Assembly (NCBI GenBank): GCA_014859085.1
Contig: JACUUY010000004.1
Span: 1-45,310 of the forward strand
Length of the DNA: 45,310 bases
Direction of reading: 5' to 3'
Source of the DNA: Caldifarciminota bacterium
GTDB lineage: Bacteria; Hydrothermota; Tepidihabitantia; SM23-42
A program made the translations under genes and the position numbers. Below the pieces are notes generated by a model. It did no database searches. It was given only the letters and a program-made list of their open reading frames with translations, and was not told the origin of the DNA. Position 1 is the stretch's first letter, and the number at the start of each line of letters is the position of its first letter. Of the stretch, positions 1 to 11,164 are shown piece by piece.

Positions 1-1252
1 TGAATTGATCAGCCGGATCAATGGCAAGTACAGCACGATCGGCTGGATGCCGATATGGTACCTGTACCGTTTCCTGCCTTTCAAAAACCTGGTGCCCCTG
101 TACAACGTCGGCGACGTTGCCCTGGTCACGCCGATCAGAGACGGCATGAATCTCATCGCGAAGGAGTATATCGCCACCAGGAAAGACAAGACCGGAGTCC
201 TGATCCTCAGCGAGATGGCCGGGGCATCCAAGATACTTGGTGAAGCCATCGTGGTGAACCCGAACGATAAAGAGGAAATGGCCGACGCGATCAAACAGGC
301 ACTGGAGATGCCCGGGCAAGATCAGATAAGAAGGAACGAAGCAATGCAGAAGCGGCTCGAACGCTACAATGTGGAAAGGTGGGCGCACGATTTCATGGAC
401 AGCCTCACGCACGTCAAACAGAAACAATCCGCTCTCGCCGAGAAGAATCTGCATCAGGAAATGCTCAGGAAGATTCTGCAGCACTACAGAAAGAGCGAAA
501 CGAGACTGATGCTGTTCGATTATGACGGCACGCTCGTATCCTTCGCCGATGAACCGGATAAGGCGGCACCGGACAAGGAGATAATCAAGATCCTTAAGAA
601 ACTCTCCGCCAATGCCCGGAATGAGCTTGTAATATTGAGCGGCCGCGACCGCCAGACGCTCGACCGGTGGTTCGGAGATATCGGGATCGGGCTGATCGCC
701 GAGCACGGCGTGTGGCTGAGAGAGAAGAACGGCACATGGTCCATGATCAAACCCCTGAAGAACGATTGGAAGGACCAGATAAAACCGGTCCTTGAGCTCT
801 ACGTGGACCGGACACCGGGTTCGCTTGTCGAAGAAAAGGATTATTCGCTCGTCTGGCACTACAGGAAATCCGACCAGAGGCTCGGCGCGCTGCGCGCGAG
901 CGAATTGAAAGAACGGCTTCTCGATATAACGACCGCCCTTGGTCTCAGCGTACTCGAAGGGAGCAAGGTACTGGAAGTGAAGAACAGCGGCATTAACAAA
1001 GGGATCGCGGCAAGAAAGTACATTAATCAGAAGGACTGGGATTTCATCATCGCGATCGGCGATGACTGGACGGACGAGGATATCTTTGCCGCAGTCCGGG
1101 AATCCGCGTACTCAATCAAAGTGGGCATCGGTTATACCAAGGCGAGATTCACGATCCCGTCTTCCAGGGAGGCCCGGCAACTGGTCAAGAATCTCAGTAA
1201 CCAGCAGCAGAGCAGCATTAGAAGGGAGCGATATGAGAAGAAGCCTGAATGA
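1..1252 (+). CDS. Trehalose-6-phosphate synthase/phosphatase fusion, 5'-truncated by window edge
   Basis: The reading frame is open at the left edge (codon GAA before the TTG the ORF track used), so the true start lies outside the window. The visible N-terminal ~100 residues are the C-terminal part of a GT20 trehalose-6-phosphate synthase: INGKYSTIGWMPI, YLYR, the DGMNLIAKEYIA stretch and the SEMAGAS...GEAIVVNP region, all typical of OtsA/TPS. From about visible residue 165 a HAD-type trehalose-6-phosphate phosphatase follows, with the nucleophile motif DYDGTL near residue 172, SGRD, and GDDWTDED near residue 352. The protein would therefore make trehalose-6-phosphate and dephosphorylate it to trehalose in one chain, as in other bifunctional TPS/TPP proteins. 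The 3' end overlaps the next gene by 20 nt, so the two are probably translationally coupled. Confident of the family; upstream half unseen. Confidence 0.93.
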   Translation, partial: ELISRINGKYSTIGWMPIWYLYRFLPFKNLVPLYNVGDVALVTPIRDGMNLIAKEYIATRKDKTGVLILSEMAGASKILGEAIVVNPNDKEEMADAIKQALEMPGQDQIRRNEAMQKRLERYNVERWAHDFMDSLTHVKQKQSALAEKNLHQEMLRKILQHYRKSETRLMLFDYDGTLVSFADEPDKAAPDKEIIKILKKLSANARNELVILSGRDRQTLDRWFGDIGIGLIAEHGVWLREKNGTWSMIKPLKNDWKDQIKPVLELYVDRTPGSLVEEKDYSLVWHYRKSDQRLGALRASELKERLLDITTALGLSVLEGSKVLEVKNSGINKGIAARKYINQKDWDFIIAIGDDWTDEDIFAAVRESAYSIKVGIGYTKARFTIPSSREARQLVKNLSNQQQSSIRRERYEKKPE

Positions 1253-2444
1253 TTACCGGACTATCGTTGGCGACAACGTGATCGGCGGGATCTACAAGAA
1301 AGCAAGACGCCTGCACGGTAAGAGCGTCGTCCATGTGAATTCGACCTATTACGGCGGCGGCGTAGCTGAGATCCTCAGCGCTCTTGTACCCCTGATGAAT
1401 GATGTGGGAGTGGTCGCCGGCTGGCGCATGCTCCGGGGGACACCTGATTTCTTCGATATCACAAAAAAATTCCACAATGCGCTGCAGGGTGATCCCGTGA
1501 ACCTGAGCGACATCAAGAAGAAATTGTACGTCCAGGCAAATGAGGATTTTTCGACCTATTGTCACATATCGCATGACTGCGTGATAGTTCACGATCCGCA
1601 ACCATTACCCATGATCCAGTTCTACCCGCGGCGGCAACCCTGGGTCTGGCGGATCCACATCGACCTGTCAAATCCCAACAAAGAATTATACGAATACCTC
1701 AAAGGGTTCATCCTCAAATACGACATCGTGATCATCTCAAGCGAAGAATACCGGTTGCCGGATGTGCCGGTCGAGCAGCACGTGATACAGCCGGCGATCG
1801 ATCCGCTGTCCCCCAAGAACATGATGCTCGCGCCCAGAACCATCGCCAAGTACCTCAAGAAATTCGATATTCCCACGGATAAGCCGATCGTGACCCAGAT
1901 CTCCAGATTTGATAAATTCAAAGACCAGGAACAACTGATCGATATCTACCGCATGGTCAAACAACAGATCGACTGCCGCCTGGTCCTCTGCGGAAGCAAT
2001 GCGCTCGATGATCCCGAGTCACAGCAATACTACGAGCGAACAAAACGGCGGGCGAACAATCTCATCAAAACCGGTGACGTGATCATGATAACGAGTGAGA
2101 ACAACATCCTTGTGAACGCACTGCAGCGGTCGTCGAGCGTGATCGTGCAGAAATCACTGCGTGAGGGTTTCGGACTGACCGTGACCGAAGGAATGCTGAA
2201 AGGGAAGCCGGTCGTCGCCTCAAGAGTCGGGGGCATCCCGCTCCAGATCACTGACGGCGAGACAGGTTTCCTCGTTGAACCCGATGACATGGAAGGATTT
2301 GCGCGAACTATCGTCTCTTTACTCAGGGATAAAGAACTGGCGAGAACGATCGGCGGCAAAGCAAGCGAGTACACGAAACACAAGTTCCTCATTACCAGAC
2401 TGCTCGTCGATTACCTCGACCTGCTGCGGGATCTGATCGCATAA
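1233..2444 (+). CDS. treT: GT4 trehalose synthase, TreT-like
   Basis: The ORF track starts at 1062, but ATG 1233 is preceded by an AAGGGAG Shine-Dalgarno and gives a normal 403-residue product beginning MRRSLNDYR. The N-terminal stretch VVHVNSTYYGGGVAEIL is characteristic of TreT/trehalose-phosphorylase-like GT4 enzymes. The C-terminal half carries the GT4 E-x7-E region (REGFGLTVTEG, near residue 311), followed by GKPVVASRVGGIPLQI. Known TreT enzymes make trehalose from NDP-glucose and glucose; related retaining enzymes act as trehalose phosphorylases, which sequence alone does not exclude. It overlaps the T6P synthase/phosphatase gene, so this operon carries two formally independent trehalose routes. 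A role in compatible-solute or storage metabolism is an inference. Cytoplasmic; no signal peptide. Confidence 0.85.
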   Translation: MRRSLNDYRTIVGDNVIGGIYKKARRLHGKSVVHVNSTYYGGGVAEILSALVPLMNDVGVVAGWRMLRGTPDFFDITKKFHNALQGDPVNLSDIKKKLYVQANEDFSTYCHISHDCVIVHDPQPLPMIQFYPRRQPWVWRIHIDLSNPNKELYEYLKGFILKYDIVIISSEEYRLPDVPVEQHVIQPAIDPLSPKNMMLAPRTIAKYLKKFDIPTDKPIVTQISRFDKFKDQEQLIDIYRMVKQQIDCRLVLCGSNALDDPESQQYYERTKRRANNLIKTGDVIMITSENNILVNALQRSSSVIVQKSLREGFGLTVTEGMLKGKPVVASRVGGIPLQITDGETGFLVEPDDMEGFARTIVSLLRDKELARTIGGKASEYTKHKFLITRLLVDYLDLLRDLIA

Positions 2445-4814: not shown

Positions 4815-5030
4815 ATGAACGAGATAACAGCGGACACGCATATCGACGAGCTGCTGGTCGAATACCCTTCCCTGTCCAAGACGTTCATAGAATTCGGCAT
4901 GCCCTGCCTGGTCTGCGGCGAACCTTTCTGGGGTACGATCGCAGAAATGAGCAAACAGCATAGAACCGATATTGAAAAGTTGGTTAACCAATTGAATCAA
5001 AGAAAGGCTCAAATCGATGCGAAATCATAA
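4815..5030 (+). CDS. DUF1858-domain small protein
   Basis: A 71-residue protein (from ATG 4815; the track's GTG 4809 is two codons earlier). It matches the DUF1858/ScdA-N-like pattern: D-x-x-IDELLVEYPSLSKTFIEFGMPCLVCGEPFWGTI, with a CxxC pair (CLVC). Such domains occur alone or fused to redox and iron-sulfur proteins; their function is poorly defined, and a metal- or redox-linked role is an inference. It is the first gene of an operon. Its stop overlaps the start of the Nudix-PanD gene by 14 nt. There is no Shine-Dalgarno, and the promoter -10 box lies 10 nt upstream, suggesting leaderless translation. Confidence 0.75.
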   Translation: MNEITADTHIDELLVEYPSLSKTFIEFGMPCLVCGEPFWGTIAEMSKQHRTDIEKLVNQLNQRKAQIDAKS

Positions 5031-5877
5031 CTTTTGTCCATTATGTAAAACCAAGTTATCAATCAATAAACTGAACGGTACCCAACGCCTTTCATGCACT
5101 CAGTGCGGCTGGGTTCATTATGGCAATCCATTGCCCAGCGCGGTCGCTTTCGTGCGCAATGAGAAGAACGAGGTCCTCCTCATCAAGCGGGGCGTTCAGC
5201 CGGGCAAGGGCAAATGGGCATTGCCTTCCGGCTTTGTCGAAGCGGACGAAATACCGGAACAGGCCGCGCTTAGAGAATTACAGGAAGAGACCGGGATAAG
5301 GGGCACGGTCACCAGTCTGATCGGCGTCTATGCCGAGCCGACAAGGATGTACGGCAATGTCATTCTCATTGCTTACGACGTGAAGTCTATCAGTGAAAAG
5401 ATCTGTGCCGGCACCGACTCGATGGAAGCCAGGTTCTTCCATGTCAACAGGATACCCAGGATACCCTTTTCCAGCCACCGGTCGGTCATCCAGGATGCGC
5501 TCGCAAAGCATGCGACAAGCAGCATGAATCTGACCGTGCTCAAAGCGAAGATAACTGAAGCAAGAATAACCCACACGCGCCTGCGCTACAAAGGAAGCAT
5601 GGGCATCGATGGCGCGATCATGAAAGCAGTCGGCATATTGCCGGGCGAAATGGTGCATGTGCTGAACTACGATAATGGAGAGCGGCTTGAAACCTATGCC
5701 ATAGAAGAAAGGGCAGGTTCCGGGAGAATGGTATTGTACGGACCGGCATCGCTAAAGGGCGAGGTTGGACAGAAGCTCTGCATCTTGTCTTATGCGTCAA
5801 TGAACCCCGGGACCGCGGAAAAATTCAAGGCGAAAGTCGTCACGCTCAACAAGAAAAACAGGATCAAGCGCCACTAA
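5017..5877 (+). CDS. Fusion of zinc-ribbon Nudix hydrolase and aspartate 1-decarboxylase (PanD) domain
   Basis: 286 residues in one uninterrupted frame. Residues 1-35 form a zinc ribbon (CPLC...CTQC), as in NudC-like proteins. Residues 40-165 are a Nudix domain whose box (G-x5-E-x7-REUxEExGU) is complete, ending RELQEETGI. From Met170 the sequence aligns with E. coli PanD residue for residue: Lys9, the self-cleavage pair Gly24-Ser25 (YKGSMGID), Arg54, Thr57 and Tyr58 (ETYAI) all fall at the same numbers after subtracting 169. PanD makes beta-alanine for pantothenate after autocleavage forms a pyruvoyl group on the serine. The usual NGAAA loop (Asn72) reads YGPAS, a departure. The start overlaps the DUF1858 gene by 14 nt with AAAGG upstream. 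No Shine-Dalgarno precedes Met170, arguing for a true fusion rather than two start sites. The Nudix substrate is unknown. Confidence 0.88.
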   Translation: MRNHNFCPLCKTKLSINKLNGTQRLSCTQCGWVHYGNPLPSAVAFVRNEKNEVLLIKRGVQPGKGKWALPSGFVEADEIPEQAALRELQEETGIRGTVTSLIGVYAEPTRMYGNVILIAYDVKSISEKICAGTDSMEARFFHVNRIPRIPFSSHRSVIQDALAKHATSSMNLTVLKAKITEARITHTRLRYKGSMGIDGAIMKAVGILPGEMVHVLNYDNGERLETYAIEERAGSGRMVLYGPASLKGEVGQKLCILSYASMNPGTAEKFKAKVVTLNKKNRIKRH

Positions 5878-5883
5878 CTGAAT

Positions 5884-6849
5884 GTGCCTTACGTGAACGC
5901 AGGCAAACCGAAGCACAAACATACATACGGTCCCGTTCCCTCTCGCAGATTGGGGTTTTCGCTCGGCATAGATATCGTGCCTCACAAGATCTGCAGCTTT
6001 GACTGTATCTACTGTCAGCTCGGGAGGACGACCGGCAAGACGGTTGCACGCAAGGATTACACGCCGGTGCACGAGATACTCGATGACGTCAGGCTCGCCC
6101 TGCAGAGTAAGGAGCAGATCAACTACCTCACATTTGCCGGCTCTGGTGAGCCAACCCTGCACAAAAGTGTAGGTCACCTTATTGCCGAGGCAAAGAAAAT
6201 GACGGATATCCCGGTTGCCGTTCTGACCAACGGCTCAATGCTGATCTTCCCCGATGTCCGGAACGATCTCGTGAACGCCGATGTTGTCATCCCCACCCTG
6301 TGCACGACCGATCAGTCGATCTTCGAGAGGATCCACCGCCCCCATGCTTGCATCGAAATCGAAGAAGTGATCAGAGGCTACATTGAATTCAGGCGGATCT
6401 TCAAGGGCCGGATCTGGCTCGAGGTAATGCTCATGAAGGATGTAAATGACAAGCCGGAACAGATCAAGGAACTGCGGACCGTGATCGAGAAGATCGCTCC
6501 GGACAAGATCCACCTCAACACAGTCGTGCGGCCGCCAAGCGAGGAGTACGCAAAGCCAGTCGATGTGGAAATGTTGCGACGGATCAGTGAAATGCTGGGC
6601 GAGAAAGCCGAGGTCATTGCGGATTTCAGCCGGCAAAAAACACAGCCGTCTCAGGATGAACACGCCGGATCGATCCTGTCAATGATCCGGCGCAGACCAA
6701 TTACCATAAATGATCTGGTCAGCACGTTGGGTCTCCACGAGAACGAGATCATTAAAATAATTGAGCATTTGATCGCACAGAAAGAGATTGCGGTATCGAG
6801 ACACGATGGCAAAGATTACTACGAGGTCAGAAGGAGGTCGAATGATTGA
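5884..6849 (+). CDS. Radical SAM protein of the COG0731 type with C-terminal winged helix
   Basis: A 321-residue radical SAM enzyme. The family opening YGPVPSRRLGFSLGIDIVP is followed by the cluster motif CSFDCIYC near residue 39. The glycine-rich SAM segment is FAGSGEPTLHK. These features place it with COG0731-type Fe-S oxidoreductases, a group related to wybutosine-synthesis enzymes but of mostly unknown reaction. The last ~65 residues (SMIRRRPITINDLVSTLGL...DYYEV) look like a winged helix-turn-helix domain. The start is GTG 5884, six nt after the Nudix-PanD stop, with no clear Shine-Dalgarno, so coupling to the upstream gene is likely. The 3' end overlaps the next gene by 8 nt. Confidence 0.85.
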   Translation: MPYVNAGKPKHKHTYGPVPSRRLGFSLGIDIVPHKICSFDCIYCQLGRTTGKTVARKDYTPVHEILDDVRLALQSKEQINYLTFAGSGEPTLHKSVGHLIAEAKKMTDIPVAVLTNGSMLIFPDVRNDLVNADVVIPTLCTTDQSIFERIHRPHACIEIEEVIRGYIEFRRIFKGRIWLEVMLMKDVNDKPEQIKELRTVIEKIAPDKIHLNTVVRPPSEEYAKPVDVEMLRRISEMLGEKAEVIADFSRQKTQPSQDEHAGSILSMIRRRPITINDLVSTLGLHENEIIKIIEHLIAQKEIAVSRHDGKDYYEVRRRSND

Positions 6850-7351
6850 ACCAAAAGACTTGAGCAAGGAGGAACTCCTGGATCTACTGGCTGACTCGGC
6901 AAAGAACTGGTTGGCCCATGATGGTTTGTGGTTCCAGGCCGTGGAGCAGGAATTCGGCATGGAATCAGCGATCGAACTCGACGGCAGAGCATGGGAGAAG
7001 TTCACCCAGATCGAAGCCCAGCGCATAATGAAGCGCCTCGGCATACAACCTGGCGGCGGCATCCCGGCGCTCATGCAGGCGTTCAGGTTCCGGCTCTATG
7101 CTTACATCAACAAGCAGGTGATCGTTGAGTCGTCGGACAAACACTGTATTTTCAGAATGGAGTCGTGCCGGGTACAGGACGCCCGGAAGAGAAAGAACCT
7201 GCCCGATTTCCCCTGCAAGCCGGTGGGCATCCTTGAATACACGTACTTTGCGAAGACGGTCGACCCGCGCATCGAAACGCGATGCCTTTCATGTCCTCCT
7301 GATCCCCATCCTGAAGAATACTACTGCTCGTGGGAGTTCAGGATAACATAG
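6842..7351 (+). CDS. DUF6125-like protein of unknown function
   Basis: ATG 6842, not the track's 6788, is the start: AGGAGGT sits four bases upstream and the upstream gene ends at 6849. The 169-residue product begins MIEPKDLSKEELLDLLADSAKNW. The LAHDGLWFQAVEQEFG and FTQIEAQRIMKRLGI segments and a Cys-rich C-terminal part (RCLSCPPDPHPEEYYCSWEF) resemble the DUF6125/ATC-hydrolase-like group found in anaerobes. I give this assignment from memory of the family pattern only. No signal peptide. Last gene of the operon starting at 4815; it ends one base before the convergent alkyltransferase gene. Confidence 0.6.
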   Translation: MIEPKDLSKEELLDLLADSAKNWLAHDGLWFQAVEQEFGMESAIELDGRAWEKFTQIEAQRIMKRLGIQPGGGIPALMQAFRFRLYAYINKQVIVESSDKHCIFRMESCRVQDARKRKNLPDFPCKPVGILEYTYFAKTVDPRIETRCLSCPPDPHPEEYYCSWEFRIT

Positions 7352-7904: not shown

Positions 7905-8018
7905 TTGACATTAATTCAGCCTGCCAGAATACCAGCACACCCGCGCTGTACTAATATCACTGCAGAGTAGTTCATTGTGGATGAGTCTCATCTTGTTAAG
8001 TGTTTAGATTTGACCCCA
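7886..8018. repeat. 133 bp mini-element with 18 bp perfect terminal inverted repeats
   Basis: TGGGGTCAAATCTAAACA at 7886-7903 is the exact reverse complement of 8001-8018. The 97 bp interior contains a 13 bp dyad, GATGAGTCTCATC (7980-7992), and no coding capacity. The left end supplies the ATG and first codons of the alkyltransferase; the right end supplies the last codons and stop of rtcA. I see no obvious target-site duplication. The form suggests a MITE or REP-like element mobilised in trans; no transposase is in the window. Confidence 0.75.
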
Positions 8019-9042
8019 TAGCCATGGATGCCTTACGGCAGGACAGGACGTTGTTATCACCGGCGAATTCGACAGGCAGGAATTTCTGAACGACCCAGAT
8101 GCTGGTCTGCGCGTGTTTCGTCATCAAAGGTACTCTCACTTCAGAAGCCGCGGACGTGCTGTTCGCTGCCAACGCCATGAACGGGATCAGCTGATCGACC
8201 ATCCACTCATCGACCGATGCGTACGAATCGATCGCTTCCCGGAGATTATTTGCCGCTTCCATCCCCACCTGCTCGGCCGGTGTTCCCCGTTTGCCAAGTG
8301 CACCGGCGCCGAGCACGCCATTACTATACCGCGCGCAAGCGGTAATGAAACAACCGGGCGAGACCGCATCCACGTACTGGCACTGGGCGTCTACATCTTC
8401 GATCACCCGGTTGAATCCGCCTACCATTCTCTCTCCAACCTTTGCATCTTTGAGGTGGCGCGAGGCGCACGACCACACTCTTACTTCTTCAGGTTCACCA
8501 CGGTCTTTCATGCTCAGCGATTTCAGGTCCGAAGGGAAGATCTTGACACAGACCTCTCCGCCGCCGCCTGGATTGAAACCATGGCGCCTGACTTCAATCT
8601 CTAAAGCTACGCCGATCATTTTCAGTATCGGCAAGAATACATGGAGAAAATATCCGATCGTCGGGCTGAAGGGCACTGCCGTGCCGCCCCTGACCGTGAG
8701 CTCGAGCGGCGCACTGACACAAACGCCGATCGGCACCAGTGTCTGCAGGATGAGCGTGACCGAACCTGCGGTTCTGGCATCGATCTCGTACTTACCACCC
8801 TTGATCTTTCCTGGAACGAATGTCATTTCGGTCGAGTTCATTTTCAAACCATCGATTTTGGCATCGCATATTTGTCCGGCGGCGGCGATTCCATGAAGGT
8901 GCTGCGGTCTTAAACCGGGTTTGTCCCTTCCCTTTCTGATATTGAAAATGTGCACGGAATTGTTGGTTATTGCCGAAAGTGCAACCGCAGTCCTCAGAAT
9001 CTGACCACCACCTTCAAAATAAGAACCATCAACATCGATCAT
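7996..9042 (-). CDS. rtcA: RNA 3'-terminal phosphate cyclase
   Basis: 348 residues, the normal size for RtcA. It begins MIDVDGSYFEGGGQILRTAVAL, the family signature, with RKGRDKPGLRPQHLHG near residue 40. Further on are HGFNPGGGGEV and the C-terminal TKHAQTSIWVVQKFLPVEF, whose His corresponds to the nucleotidylated histidine. The enzyme converts RNA 3'-phosphates to 2',3'-cyclic phosphates using ATP. No RtcB, RtcR or sigma54 elements are nearby. It is separated by 5 nt from the upstream DUF2284 gene. The final residues (GSNLNT) and the stop codon lie inside the repeat element at 7886-8018, so the tail is probably not native. Confidence 0.93.
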   Translation of the reverse strand: MIDVDGSYFEGGGQILRTAVALSAITNNSVHIFNIRKGRDKPGLRPQHLHGIAAAGQICDAKIDGLKMNSTEMTFVPGKIKGGKYEIDARTAGSVTLILQTLVPIGVCVSAPLELTVRGGTAVPFSPTIGYFLHVFLPILKMIGVALEIEVRRHGFNPGGGGEVCVKIFPSDLKSLSMKDRGEPEEVRVWSCASRHLKDAKVGERMVGGFNRVIEDVDAQCQYVDAVSPGCFITACARYSNGVLGAGALGKRGTPAEQVGMEAANNLREAIDSYASVDEWMVDQLIPFMALAANSTSAASEVRVPLMTKHAQTSIWVVQKFLPVEFAGDNNVLSCRKASMAMGSNLNT

Positions 9043-9047
9043 ACCAC

Positions 9048-9578
9048 CTACTCAATGAGTATCACCGCGTTATACGAACAACAAGCATCTTCGGTTCTCA
9101 CTACTTCCAGTTCGAAACCGTTGTTTCTCACTGTTTGATATACATCGATACCACACGCCTCCATCGCCGGTCTTGCCTGCTCCGGATGTATGCACTCTTT
9201 CTTGGTGTTACACGTTCGACAGAATCGGCAAGGACCTGAAGCCATACCAAATGCCTTGTAATACCCGTCAAGGAAGATGTCGCGCTCAAGAACGGCCACG
9301 ATATTTTTCAACTTCCTGCTCATCGTGCGTTCCTTTCCCGACTGTATACCCGTGATCTGTATTAGCAGCGCCTTTGAGTATTCACCCAACATTTTCTTCG
9401 TGTACTCCGGTGTCGGCGAAAACGGCGGACAGGTTAGGTGTTTGCCATGACCACTGCAACCATACTGGCATTTAAGCCTGACCCAATTGCTCACGACAAT
9501 AGTCTTTGTATCAACTACCTTTGCTTTAGTGATCCCCATCGATATAGACTTCATCACATATTTTTCAAGATTAGACAT
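9048..9578 (-). CDS. DUF2284 putative metal-binding protein
   Basis: 176 residues, cysteine-rich, with no transmembrane segment. The motifs CQYGCSGHGKHLTCPPFSPTP near residue 37 and GPCRFCRTCNTKKECIHPEQARPAMEACGIDV in the C-terminal half are the recognisable DUF2284 pattern (predicted metal-binding, COG5423). The function is unknown; the paired Cys clusters suggest iron-sulfur or zinc binding. GGAGG precedes the ATG. It lies 47 nt after the ligase gene and 5 nt before rtcA, so all three are probably one transcript. Confidence 0.83.
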   Translation of the reverse strand: MSNLEKYVMKSISMGITKAKVVDTKTIVVSNWVRLKCQYGCSGHGKHLTCPPFSPTPEYTKKMLGEYSKALLIQITGIQSGKERTMSRKLKNIVAVLERDIFLDGYYKAFGMASGPCRFCRTCNTKKECIHPEQARPAMEACGIDVYQTVRNNGFELEVVRTEDACCSYNAVILIE

Positions 9579-9625: not shown

Positions 9626-11164
9626 CTACTGAATATCGGTCAAAGCGATTCGGGATAATTTTTCCAGGTCCATTATGGTATTGATATCTTTCGCAGTTTT
9701 GTCGTTTCGTATCCGCTTCACGCGCGCGAACCTGAGCGCGACGCCTGAATCGTATTTCGGACTCTTCTGGACTTCGTTGAAAGCGATTTCAACAACAACC
9801 TCGGGTTTGACATAGACGGTCCATTTATCTTCATGCACCTTATATTGTGGAAGGTTATTGGTCACCCATTGCAGCATTTTGTCAGTCAGTCCCTTAAACG
9901 TCTTGCCGACCATCAGGTACTTTGTCTTTGTTTCATCGAGAATACCCAAATGCAGATTCGATAACAAACCATGCCTCCTGCCGTGTCCCCATTCGGCCGC
10001 CAGCACCACGCAATCGGCCGTATGGCTGCCCTTTATCTTGAACCATAGATTCCCTCTTTTACCAGGGCGATACGGGGAATCGAGAACCTTTACCATGACA
10101 CCTTCGTTGCCACACTCGATGGCTTGCTCGTAGAAGGCAATCGCGGCACTTTTGCTGACCGGCTTTGTCCGTGCTGCCAGGTATTCCTTCTTACGGACGA
10201 TTCTGCCAAGCACTTTTCCGCGTTCTGTGTAAGTCTGGCCGGTTAGGTCGTTACCATCGACGTACAGAGCATCGAAGAACTGCGGCAGCACGGGAACTTG
10301 TTTCTGCATTCTGGCGATGTCCTTCTTCCGTGTAGTACGGCGCGCGAGGACCTGAAAGGGAACTGGTCTACCTTTGTCGTCGATACCGATCGCTTCACCA
10401 TCAAGAATGAATTCATTCACCGAAAGCTCCATGGCGGTCGCTACTAATTCCGGAAAGTGAACGGTGATATCCTTCAAGTGTCTGGAAAATATCCTTACTT
10501 CATCTCCCTTGCGGTGGACTTGAATTCTGATACCATCCAGCTTGTGCTCCAGGGCAAAATCATCGTACTTTTCGTAAACCTTGTCCATTGATTCCGCAAT
10601 CTGCGCCAGCATCGGCTTCAGCGGGCTAAAAATCCTTGTTCCAAGGTTATCTAATCCTGTCTTCCCATGTTCCAGAATAAACGTAAATAGCTCGGCAATG
10701 TCCGGCTTTTGCAGGTATGCCCGTTCAAGACTATCCTGTGACAATTTGAAGAATTCGTCAATTGCCAGCTTCACCAATCCCTCGCCTGCGCCTTGATGAA
10801 CCTCCCCGATGATCAGCGAAACGAGATGCCTGCGTTTTGCCTTGCTGAGTCGGCTAAACAATGGTGCCAGGACTTCGATTTTTGCCCTTCCCCGTGCTGT
10901 GCTGGCTTCATTGAGAAAATCGTGCACTTCCATCAACTCCGGTGATGCGCCTCTATGCTGTGGAGTCAGGAGTAGTTCAGACAATCCTTTCCACGTTATG
11001 CTGATCTTGCCCTGCATGATCTTACCAGAAATATAAGACACGCCAATTCCAGCTTCTCCTTTCTTCAGCCTGCGCAGGAAATCGAGGATCACACCAATCT
11101 TCTCATTCCTTGAATTCACTCTTCTCAATCGTTCTGAATATTGAACCAACACTTTAAATTGCAT
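9626..11164 (-). CDS. ATP-dependent DNA ligase, archaeal/LigB type
   Basis: 512 residues. The N-terminal ~200 residues are the helical DNA-binding domain. The adenylation domain has the lysine motif LEHKLDGIRIQVHR near residue 210, then FILDGEAIG, EGVMVKVLDSPYRPG and WFKIK. The OB-fold follows with LLSNLHLG and the C-terminal RFARVKRIRNDK. Length and order match archaeal-type replicative/repair ligases rather than short Ku-linked LigD proteins. The start at 11164 is preceded by AGAGAG. It heads a cluster with the DUF2284 protein, RtcA and Ogt, suggesting a nucleic-acid end-repair neighbourhood. I saw no convincing promoter in the 60 bp upstream. Confidence 0.93.
   Translation of the reverse strand: MQFKVLVQYSERLRRVNSRNEKIGVILDFLRRLKKGEAGIGVSYISGKIMQGKISITWKGLSELLLTPQHRGASPELMEVHDFLNEASTARGRAKIEVLAPLFSRLSKAKRRHLVSLIIGEVHQGAGEGLVKLAIDEFFKLSQDSLERAYLQKPDIAELFTFILEHGKTGLDNLGTRIFSPLKPMLAQIAESMDKVYEKYDDFALEHKLDGIRIQVHRKGDEVRIFSRHLKDITVHFPELVATAMELSVNEFILDGEAIGIDDKGRPVPFQVLARRTTRKKDIARMQKQVPVLPQFFDALYVDGNDLTGQTYTERGKVLGRIVRKKEYLAARTKPVSKSAAIAFYEQAIECGNEGVMVKVLDSPYRPGKRGNLWFKIKGSHTADCVVLAAEWGHGRRHGLLSNLHLGILDETKTKYLMVGKTFKGLTDKMLQWVTNNLPQYKVHEDKWTVYVKPEVVVEIAFNEVQKSPKYDSGVALRFARVKRIRNDKTAKDINTIMDLEKLSRIALTDIQ

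Follow-up and report, generated by a model that had tools for sequence, protein, structure and literature searches.

A zinc-ribbon Nudix domain and aspartate 1-decarboxylase in one conserved reading frame in an order of uncultured WOR-3 bacteria

The aspartate 1-decarboxylases (PanD, PF02261) of Escherichia coli, Mycobacterium and Francisella and the zinc-ribbon Nudix hydrolases are the closest described relatives of the two halves of the protein analyzed here. In E. coli, PanD is controlled by PanZ together with CoA (PMC4410942). PanZ (PanM) is a separate GNAT protein, and the PanM-dependent class of PanD has been reported only in Gammaproteobacteria (PMC4537548). Type III pantothenate kinases are reported to operate without CoA feedback (PMC12570885). 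Among the zinc-ribbon Nudix proteins, the NADH pyrophosphatase NudC (5iw4, 7e44) has a Zn ribbon followed by a Nudix domain, and the E. coli enzyme has been crystallized with dephospho-CoA (7e44). A further member of this group, the hydrolase of Nitrosomonas europaea with structure 3cng, is of undetermined function (PMC5389931).

Here we compare these systems with a Nudix–PanD fusion encoded by a Caldifarciminota bacterium (assembly GCA_014859085.1, contig JACUUY010000004.1), of which positions 1 to 45,310, referred to below as the window, were analyzed. The fusion recalls the PanZ/PanM–PanD complex, by analogy only, in that a second, nucleotide-binding domain is attached to PanD, whereas here this domain is a Nudix domain present in cis. 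We found no paper describing a Nudix–PanD architecture in the literature searched, in line with the initial annotation, which had been made from the sequence alone and knew of none, although automatic database entries may exist. The fusion combines two known families in a new domain architecture.

Table 1. Positions of the fusion, its domains and its operon neighbors in the window, and of Nudix–GNAT proteins at other loci
Feature	Position	Strand	Basis or remark
DUF1858 protein (PF08984, E 2.5e-8), first operon gene	4815..5030	+	same position in several fused loci
Nudix–PanD fusion ORF, 286 aa	5017..5877	+	full-length orthologues exist
Zn ribbon (Cys7, Cys10, Cys27, Cys30 invariant)	5029..5121	+	PF14803 match, alignment
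NUDIX domain	5134..5460	+	PF00293 match; best PDB fold match 3cng
Nudix box GX5EX7REUXEEXGU, residues 72–94	5230..5298	+	motif match
PanD (aspartate 1-decarboxylase) domain, residues 170–283	5524..5865	+	PF02261; Foldseek 1ppy/1pqe
Predicted self-cleavage bond Gly193-Ser194 (E. coli Gly24-Ser25)	5593..5598	+	G and S invariant in all members
Radical SAM protein, next gene	5884..6849	+	adjoins fusion directly, or after DUF89 gene in other members
DUF6125 protein (PF19620), conserved next gene	6788..7351	+
Nudix–GNAT protein, locus L103	4725-5960		Pfam
Nudix–GNAT protein, locus L104	4983-5957		Pfam
Nudix–GNAT protein, locus L105	836-1843		Pfam

The Zn ribbon, NUDIX and PanD domains follow one another in a single reading frame, with exactly the coordinates, frame and domain order that the initial annotation had given (Table 1). 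PF14803 (Zn_ribbon_Nudix) matches residues 5–35 (E 7.6e-6; 26.2 bits against a cut-off of 25.6), PF00293 (NUDIX) residues 40–148 (E 2.9e-20), and PF02261 (Asp_decarbox) residues 170–283, covering positions 1–114 of the 115 in the profile (E 1.6e-34; 118.6 bits against a cut-off of 25). The first two matches, together with the Nudix box and the four invariant cysteines, assign the N-terminal half to the zinc-ribbon Nudix type. The linker between the two halves is short and variable among members, and the start codon at 5017 has a Shine-Dalgarno-like AAAGG run 9 nt upstream. A search of the genome found the fusion to be its sole PanD. In an AlphaFold model (mean pLDDT 85.8), the pTM of 0.52 leaves the relative placement of the domains unfixed. 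Foldseek matched the model to unprocessed E. coli PanD (1ppy, 1pqe) with target-normalized TM scores of 0.91–0.96, and gave 3cng as the best PDB match of the Nudix half.

The fusion occurs as a single stop-free frame in 26 of 27 genomes of the same order, spanning two families and 13 genera, and its relatives there are 53–69% identical to it. The one genome lacking it is 84% complete and has no PanD match. Several of the genomes that carry it are single-contig assemblies, and a frame intact across 13 genera rules out the sequencing frameshift that had been considered at the outset, as well as a lost stop codon or an assembly artefact. Separate translation of PanD is a related concern, since Met170 in the protein of the window falls where a PanD chain would naturally begin. 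However, this methionine is present at the Nudix/PanD junction in only 3 of 25 members, seven of the 25 have no ATG, GTG or TTG there, and no Shine-Dalgarno sequence was found before Met170 in the window. An internal start is therefore not the conserved mode of expression, and the idea that PanD is made separately from Met170, or that the frame is an artefact, is refuted as a general explanation and retains a negligible probability. For the three closest pairs of members, dN is lower than dS in both domains, a comparison that can be used for these pairs only, most of the remaining ones being saturated or undefined at synonymous sites. We conclude that the fusion is genuine, old and conserved in one order of uncultured WOR-3 bacteria.

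Its wider distribution was surveyed with two peptide patterns in one genome per species across 85,462 species, a scan that would miss divergent independent fusions. Loci with both domains confirmed came only from metagenome-assembled genomes (MAGs) bearing the names WOR-3, Stahlbacteria or TA06. The remaining hits comprised stand-alone PanDs in Alphaproteobacteria, longer Nudix proteins from Chloroflexi, and Nudix genes standing alone in Aminicenantes, Atribacteria, further WOR-3 genomes and others. Within the phylum, of which 120 genomes were covered, frames as long as the fusion (284–300 aa) were seen to contain PanD in this order only. Two Aminicenantota PanDs in frames of 313 and 730 aa proved to be ordinary panC–panD neighbors in long read-through frames, and a Thermoflexales candidate (L105, match 2–282) is a Nudix–GNAT protein. 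Such fusions of a zinc-ribbon Nudix domain to a GNAT acetyltransferase were seen in Chloroflexi and in a Pleurocapsa-labelled MAG, three of them checked with Pfam (Table 1), and the proteins of L102, L106-L111, L114 and L115 are of similar length to these three. We know of no description of the Nudix–GNAT architecture.

The PanD half resembles the PanDs of E. coli, Mycobacterium and Francisella in its full-length domain, cleavage bond, active-site residues and predicted fold, but carries an N-terminal Nudix extension of ~169 residues. The equivalents of Lys9, Gly24-Ser25, Arg54, Thr57 and Tyr58, which had been aligned at the outset, are indeed present and are kept in all 26 fused sequences and also in 46 stand-alone PanDs. 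Although its score of 97.8 bits misses the cut-off of 106 bits of the NCBIfam panD equivalog TIGR00223, the domain is assignable as PanD by Pfam, by these residues and by its predicted fold. Differences from the E. coli enzyme were noted at two positions. The replacement of the NGAAA loop by YGPAS was correctly noted, with Tyr in place of Asn72, but the idea that it changes the chemistry or maturation loses weight, as the same Tyr72 occurs naturally in stand-alone alphaproteobacterial PanDs and Asn72 is dispensable for activation in E. coli, as shown by N72A (PMC3975893). The other difference, which the initial annotation did not mention, is at His11, replaced by Thr in the window and by Thr or Ser in 26 of 26 fusions. 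The H11A variant of E. coli PanD (1pt1) is described as unprocessed, and Francisella PanD (3oug, the best PDB hit) has Ser at this position and is described as cleaved, so cleavage is not necessarily prevented by a hydroxyl residue at this place. E. coli PanD with extra N-terminal residues crystallizes (1pqh, 1pt1; the match begins at residue 16). The fusion is most likely bifunctional and would cleave at Gly193-Ser194, and the earlier proposal of a beta chain with the Nudix domain as its predicted N-terminal part is well supported. Since the PanM-dependent class is known only from Gammaproteobacteria (PMC4537548), the PanD half is expected to belong to class II, which is PanM-independent.

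The Nudix half retains the catalytic Glu and Arg residues in all 25 members. The window sequence and 10 of the 25 match the strict Nudix box pattern and all 25 match a relaxed one, the last Gly of the box being absent in 15. Signature motifs of two candidate identities are missing throughout: neither the motif of CoA pyrophosphatase Nudix proteins (UPF0035; LL[TS]xR[SA]x3Rx3Gx3FPGG) nor the SQPWPFPxS motif that follows the Nudix box in NudC was found in any of the 25. NudC nevertheless shares the order of Zn ribbon and Nudix domain and aligns with residues 2–163 of the fusion, which scores far below the NAD(+) diphosphatase cut-off (NF001299; 45.4 bits against 158). The 3cng protein shares the Zn ribbon and the Nudix domain at 28–29% identity, but unlike the fusion has no PanD domain. 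AtNUDX23 of plants is presumably of the same zinc-ribbon Nudix type. It is an FAD pyrophosphatase (PMC9678776) and, unlike the fusion, a plastid enzyme without PanD. Because the catalytic carboxylates are intact in all 25 members and neither the CoA-Nudix nor the NudC signature is present, our guess, from family resemblance, is that the substrate may be an ADP-containing cofactor, for example, FAD, NADH or ADP-ribose.

Fused loci follow the order DUF1858, fusion, DUF89 phosphatase (in part of the members), radical SAM and DUF6125. In the window the DUF1858 gene overlaps the start of the fusion by 14 nt, which hints at translational coupling. Of 23 fused loci examined, 12 have a DUF89 gene close to the fusion, and wherever coordinates were compared this gene lies immediately downstream. 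DUF89 also occurs in 13 stand-alone Nudix loci, and it was found neither in the genus of the window nor in the second family of the order. In Aminicenantes locus L066, which is without panD, a stand-alone Nudix gene is followed by DUF89 and radical SAM genes, and the Nudix gene adjoins radical SAM in WOR-3 locus L079 and in L081 and L082. The order Nudix, DUF89 (an ARMT1-like phosphatase), radical SAM is common to Aminicenantes and WOR-3 (L066 2292-4600; L064 5001-7613), pointing to a nucleotide- or cofactor-related task in which the Nudix and DUF89 proteins both take part. Elsewhere in the window, genes for an RNA 3'-phosphate cyclase, a DUF2284 protein and an ATP-dependent DNA ligase are adjacent on the minus strand (7999-9042, 9051-9578, 9629-11164). 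At 5-2444 (+), a trehalose-phosphate synthase/phosphatase ORF is overlapped by a TreT-type trehalose synthase ORF, placing two trehalose routes side by side.

In a PanD tree the fused sequences form one clade (99/97), apart from nearly all other sampled stand-alone PanDs, mostly from WOR-3; the exception is the long-branched L155, which groups on the fused side. This clade adjoins alphaproteobacterial PanDs (91/88, from few columns), with which it has GSMGID and Tyr72 in common. In the Nudix tree, the fused halves form one clade (100/93), in which the only gene standing alone is L069 from WOR-3, whose genome carries a separate PanD. The fusion probably arose once, and its panD apparently did not come from the lineage of stand-alone PanDs sampled in the rest of the phylum. 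Because close stand-alone Nudix relatives occupy similar operons without panD, panD was most likely placed behind an older Nudix gene of the operon, displacing the native copy, a direction read from sequence comparison.

A type III pantothenate kinase (PanK) is also encoded in the genome, as is PanB, whose gene is divided between two contigs. PanC was not found in it, perhaps owing to a contig break, and is present in 24 of the 27 genomes of the order, being absent from this one, G014 and G016. Given that almost every relative in the order has PanC and that panB is split here, we disfavor the view that its absence points to another pathway. A link to CoA, raised at the outset as conceivable, stands as an indirect one, through PanB and type III PanK in the genome and PanC in its relatives, but the CoA-Nudix signature is missing and the panD-free operons of stand-alone Nudix relatives argue against an original CoA role.

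We consider it likely that the best explanation is an order-wide, probably single-origin fusion of two probably working enzymes. Drawing on the sequences and their conservation, the predicted folds, the sole PanD and the operon comparison, we propose a model that is conditional in its cleavage, tetramer, two activities, substrate and direction of gene movement. A panD gene would have joined the zinc-ribbon Nudix gene of an older Nudix–DUF89 phosphatase–radical SAM operon, replacing the native panD. The 286-aa zymogen would form a tetramer through its PanD part and cut itself at Gly193-Ser194 into a 193-residue Nudix-beta chain and a 93-residue alpha chain bearing the pyruvoyl group. PanD would then turn aspartate into beta-alanine for PanC, and the Nudix half, tethered in four copies per tetramer, would hydrolyze a nucleoside-diphosphate-X, most likely one of the ADP-containing cofactors proposed above. 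Points that weigh against this explanation are the PanD score under the TIGR00223 cut-off, the PanC gene that was not found in this genome, the pTM of the model, a substrate guessed from family resemblance, and the missing last Gly of the Nudix box in 15 of 25 members.

Why the two halves are joined can be explained in other ways. The union may be a historical accident, two uncoupled enzymes in one chain that is kept for the sole reason that the gene supplies the only PanD, a possibility that we take seriously while doubting it. Apart from the fusion, nothing visible ties the Nudix gene of the locus that PanD entered to pantothenate, the segment joining the halves is short and varies among members, and E. 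coli PanD still crystallizes with N-terminal extensions; on the other hand, the halves have never separated again in any lineage of the order, a weak objection because a split needs both a new start and a ribosome binding site. By analogy with PanZ/PanM, the Nudix half may instead be a built-in regulator that binds CoA, dephospho-CoA, FAD or ADP-ribose and controls the maturation or activity of PanD. This we hold to be unlikely, even though the fusion is kept in every order member that has a PanD match, a related zinc-ribbon Nudix protein, E. coli NudC, has been crystallized with dephospho-CoA, PanZ with CoA offers a precedent (PMC4410942), and control at the level of PanD could be useful beside a kinase type reported to be free of CoA feedback (PMC12570885). 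The retained catalytic residues fit an enzyme better than a pure sensor, the CoA-Nudix motif is missing, the stand-alone Nudix relatives have no link to panD, and type III kinases, the type covered by our kinase search, are common in bacteria without such a fusion. That the Nudix half would be a ligand-controlled cis module governing PanD, and thereby a second, independently evolved pantothenate control beside PanZ in hosts with a type III kinase, seems slightly less probable again.

The neighboring phosphatase raises the further idea that the fusion may act with DUF89 in cofactor turnover more widely, or in a CoA turnover cycle, in which the Nudix half would cut CoA, DUF89 would dephosphorylate phosphopantetheine and PanD would supply new beta-alanine. 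DUF89 genes do accompany both fused and stand-alone Nudix genes, and DUF89 is listed as tied to CoA through gene fusion (PMC4921024). Yet the CoA-Nudix signature is missing in all 25 members, and DUF89 was not found in the genus of the window or in the second family. One DUF89 subfamily acts on nucleotides and may be the one at the fused loci, which also counts against this cycle. We regard the CoA cycle as improbable.

Elsewhere in the genomes examined PanD looks like a small, stand-alone protein, while here it is permanently fused to a Nudix hydrolase and fixed in a whole order. The fusion would be a pyruvoyl enzyme having a second enzyme as its beta chain. It offers a natural experiment on a possible tie between nucleotide-cofactor metabolism and the supply of beta-alanine, through which a new control of vitamin B5 and CoA synthesis could come to light.
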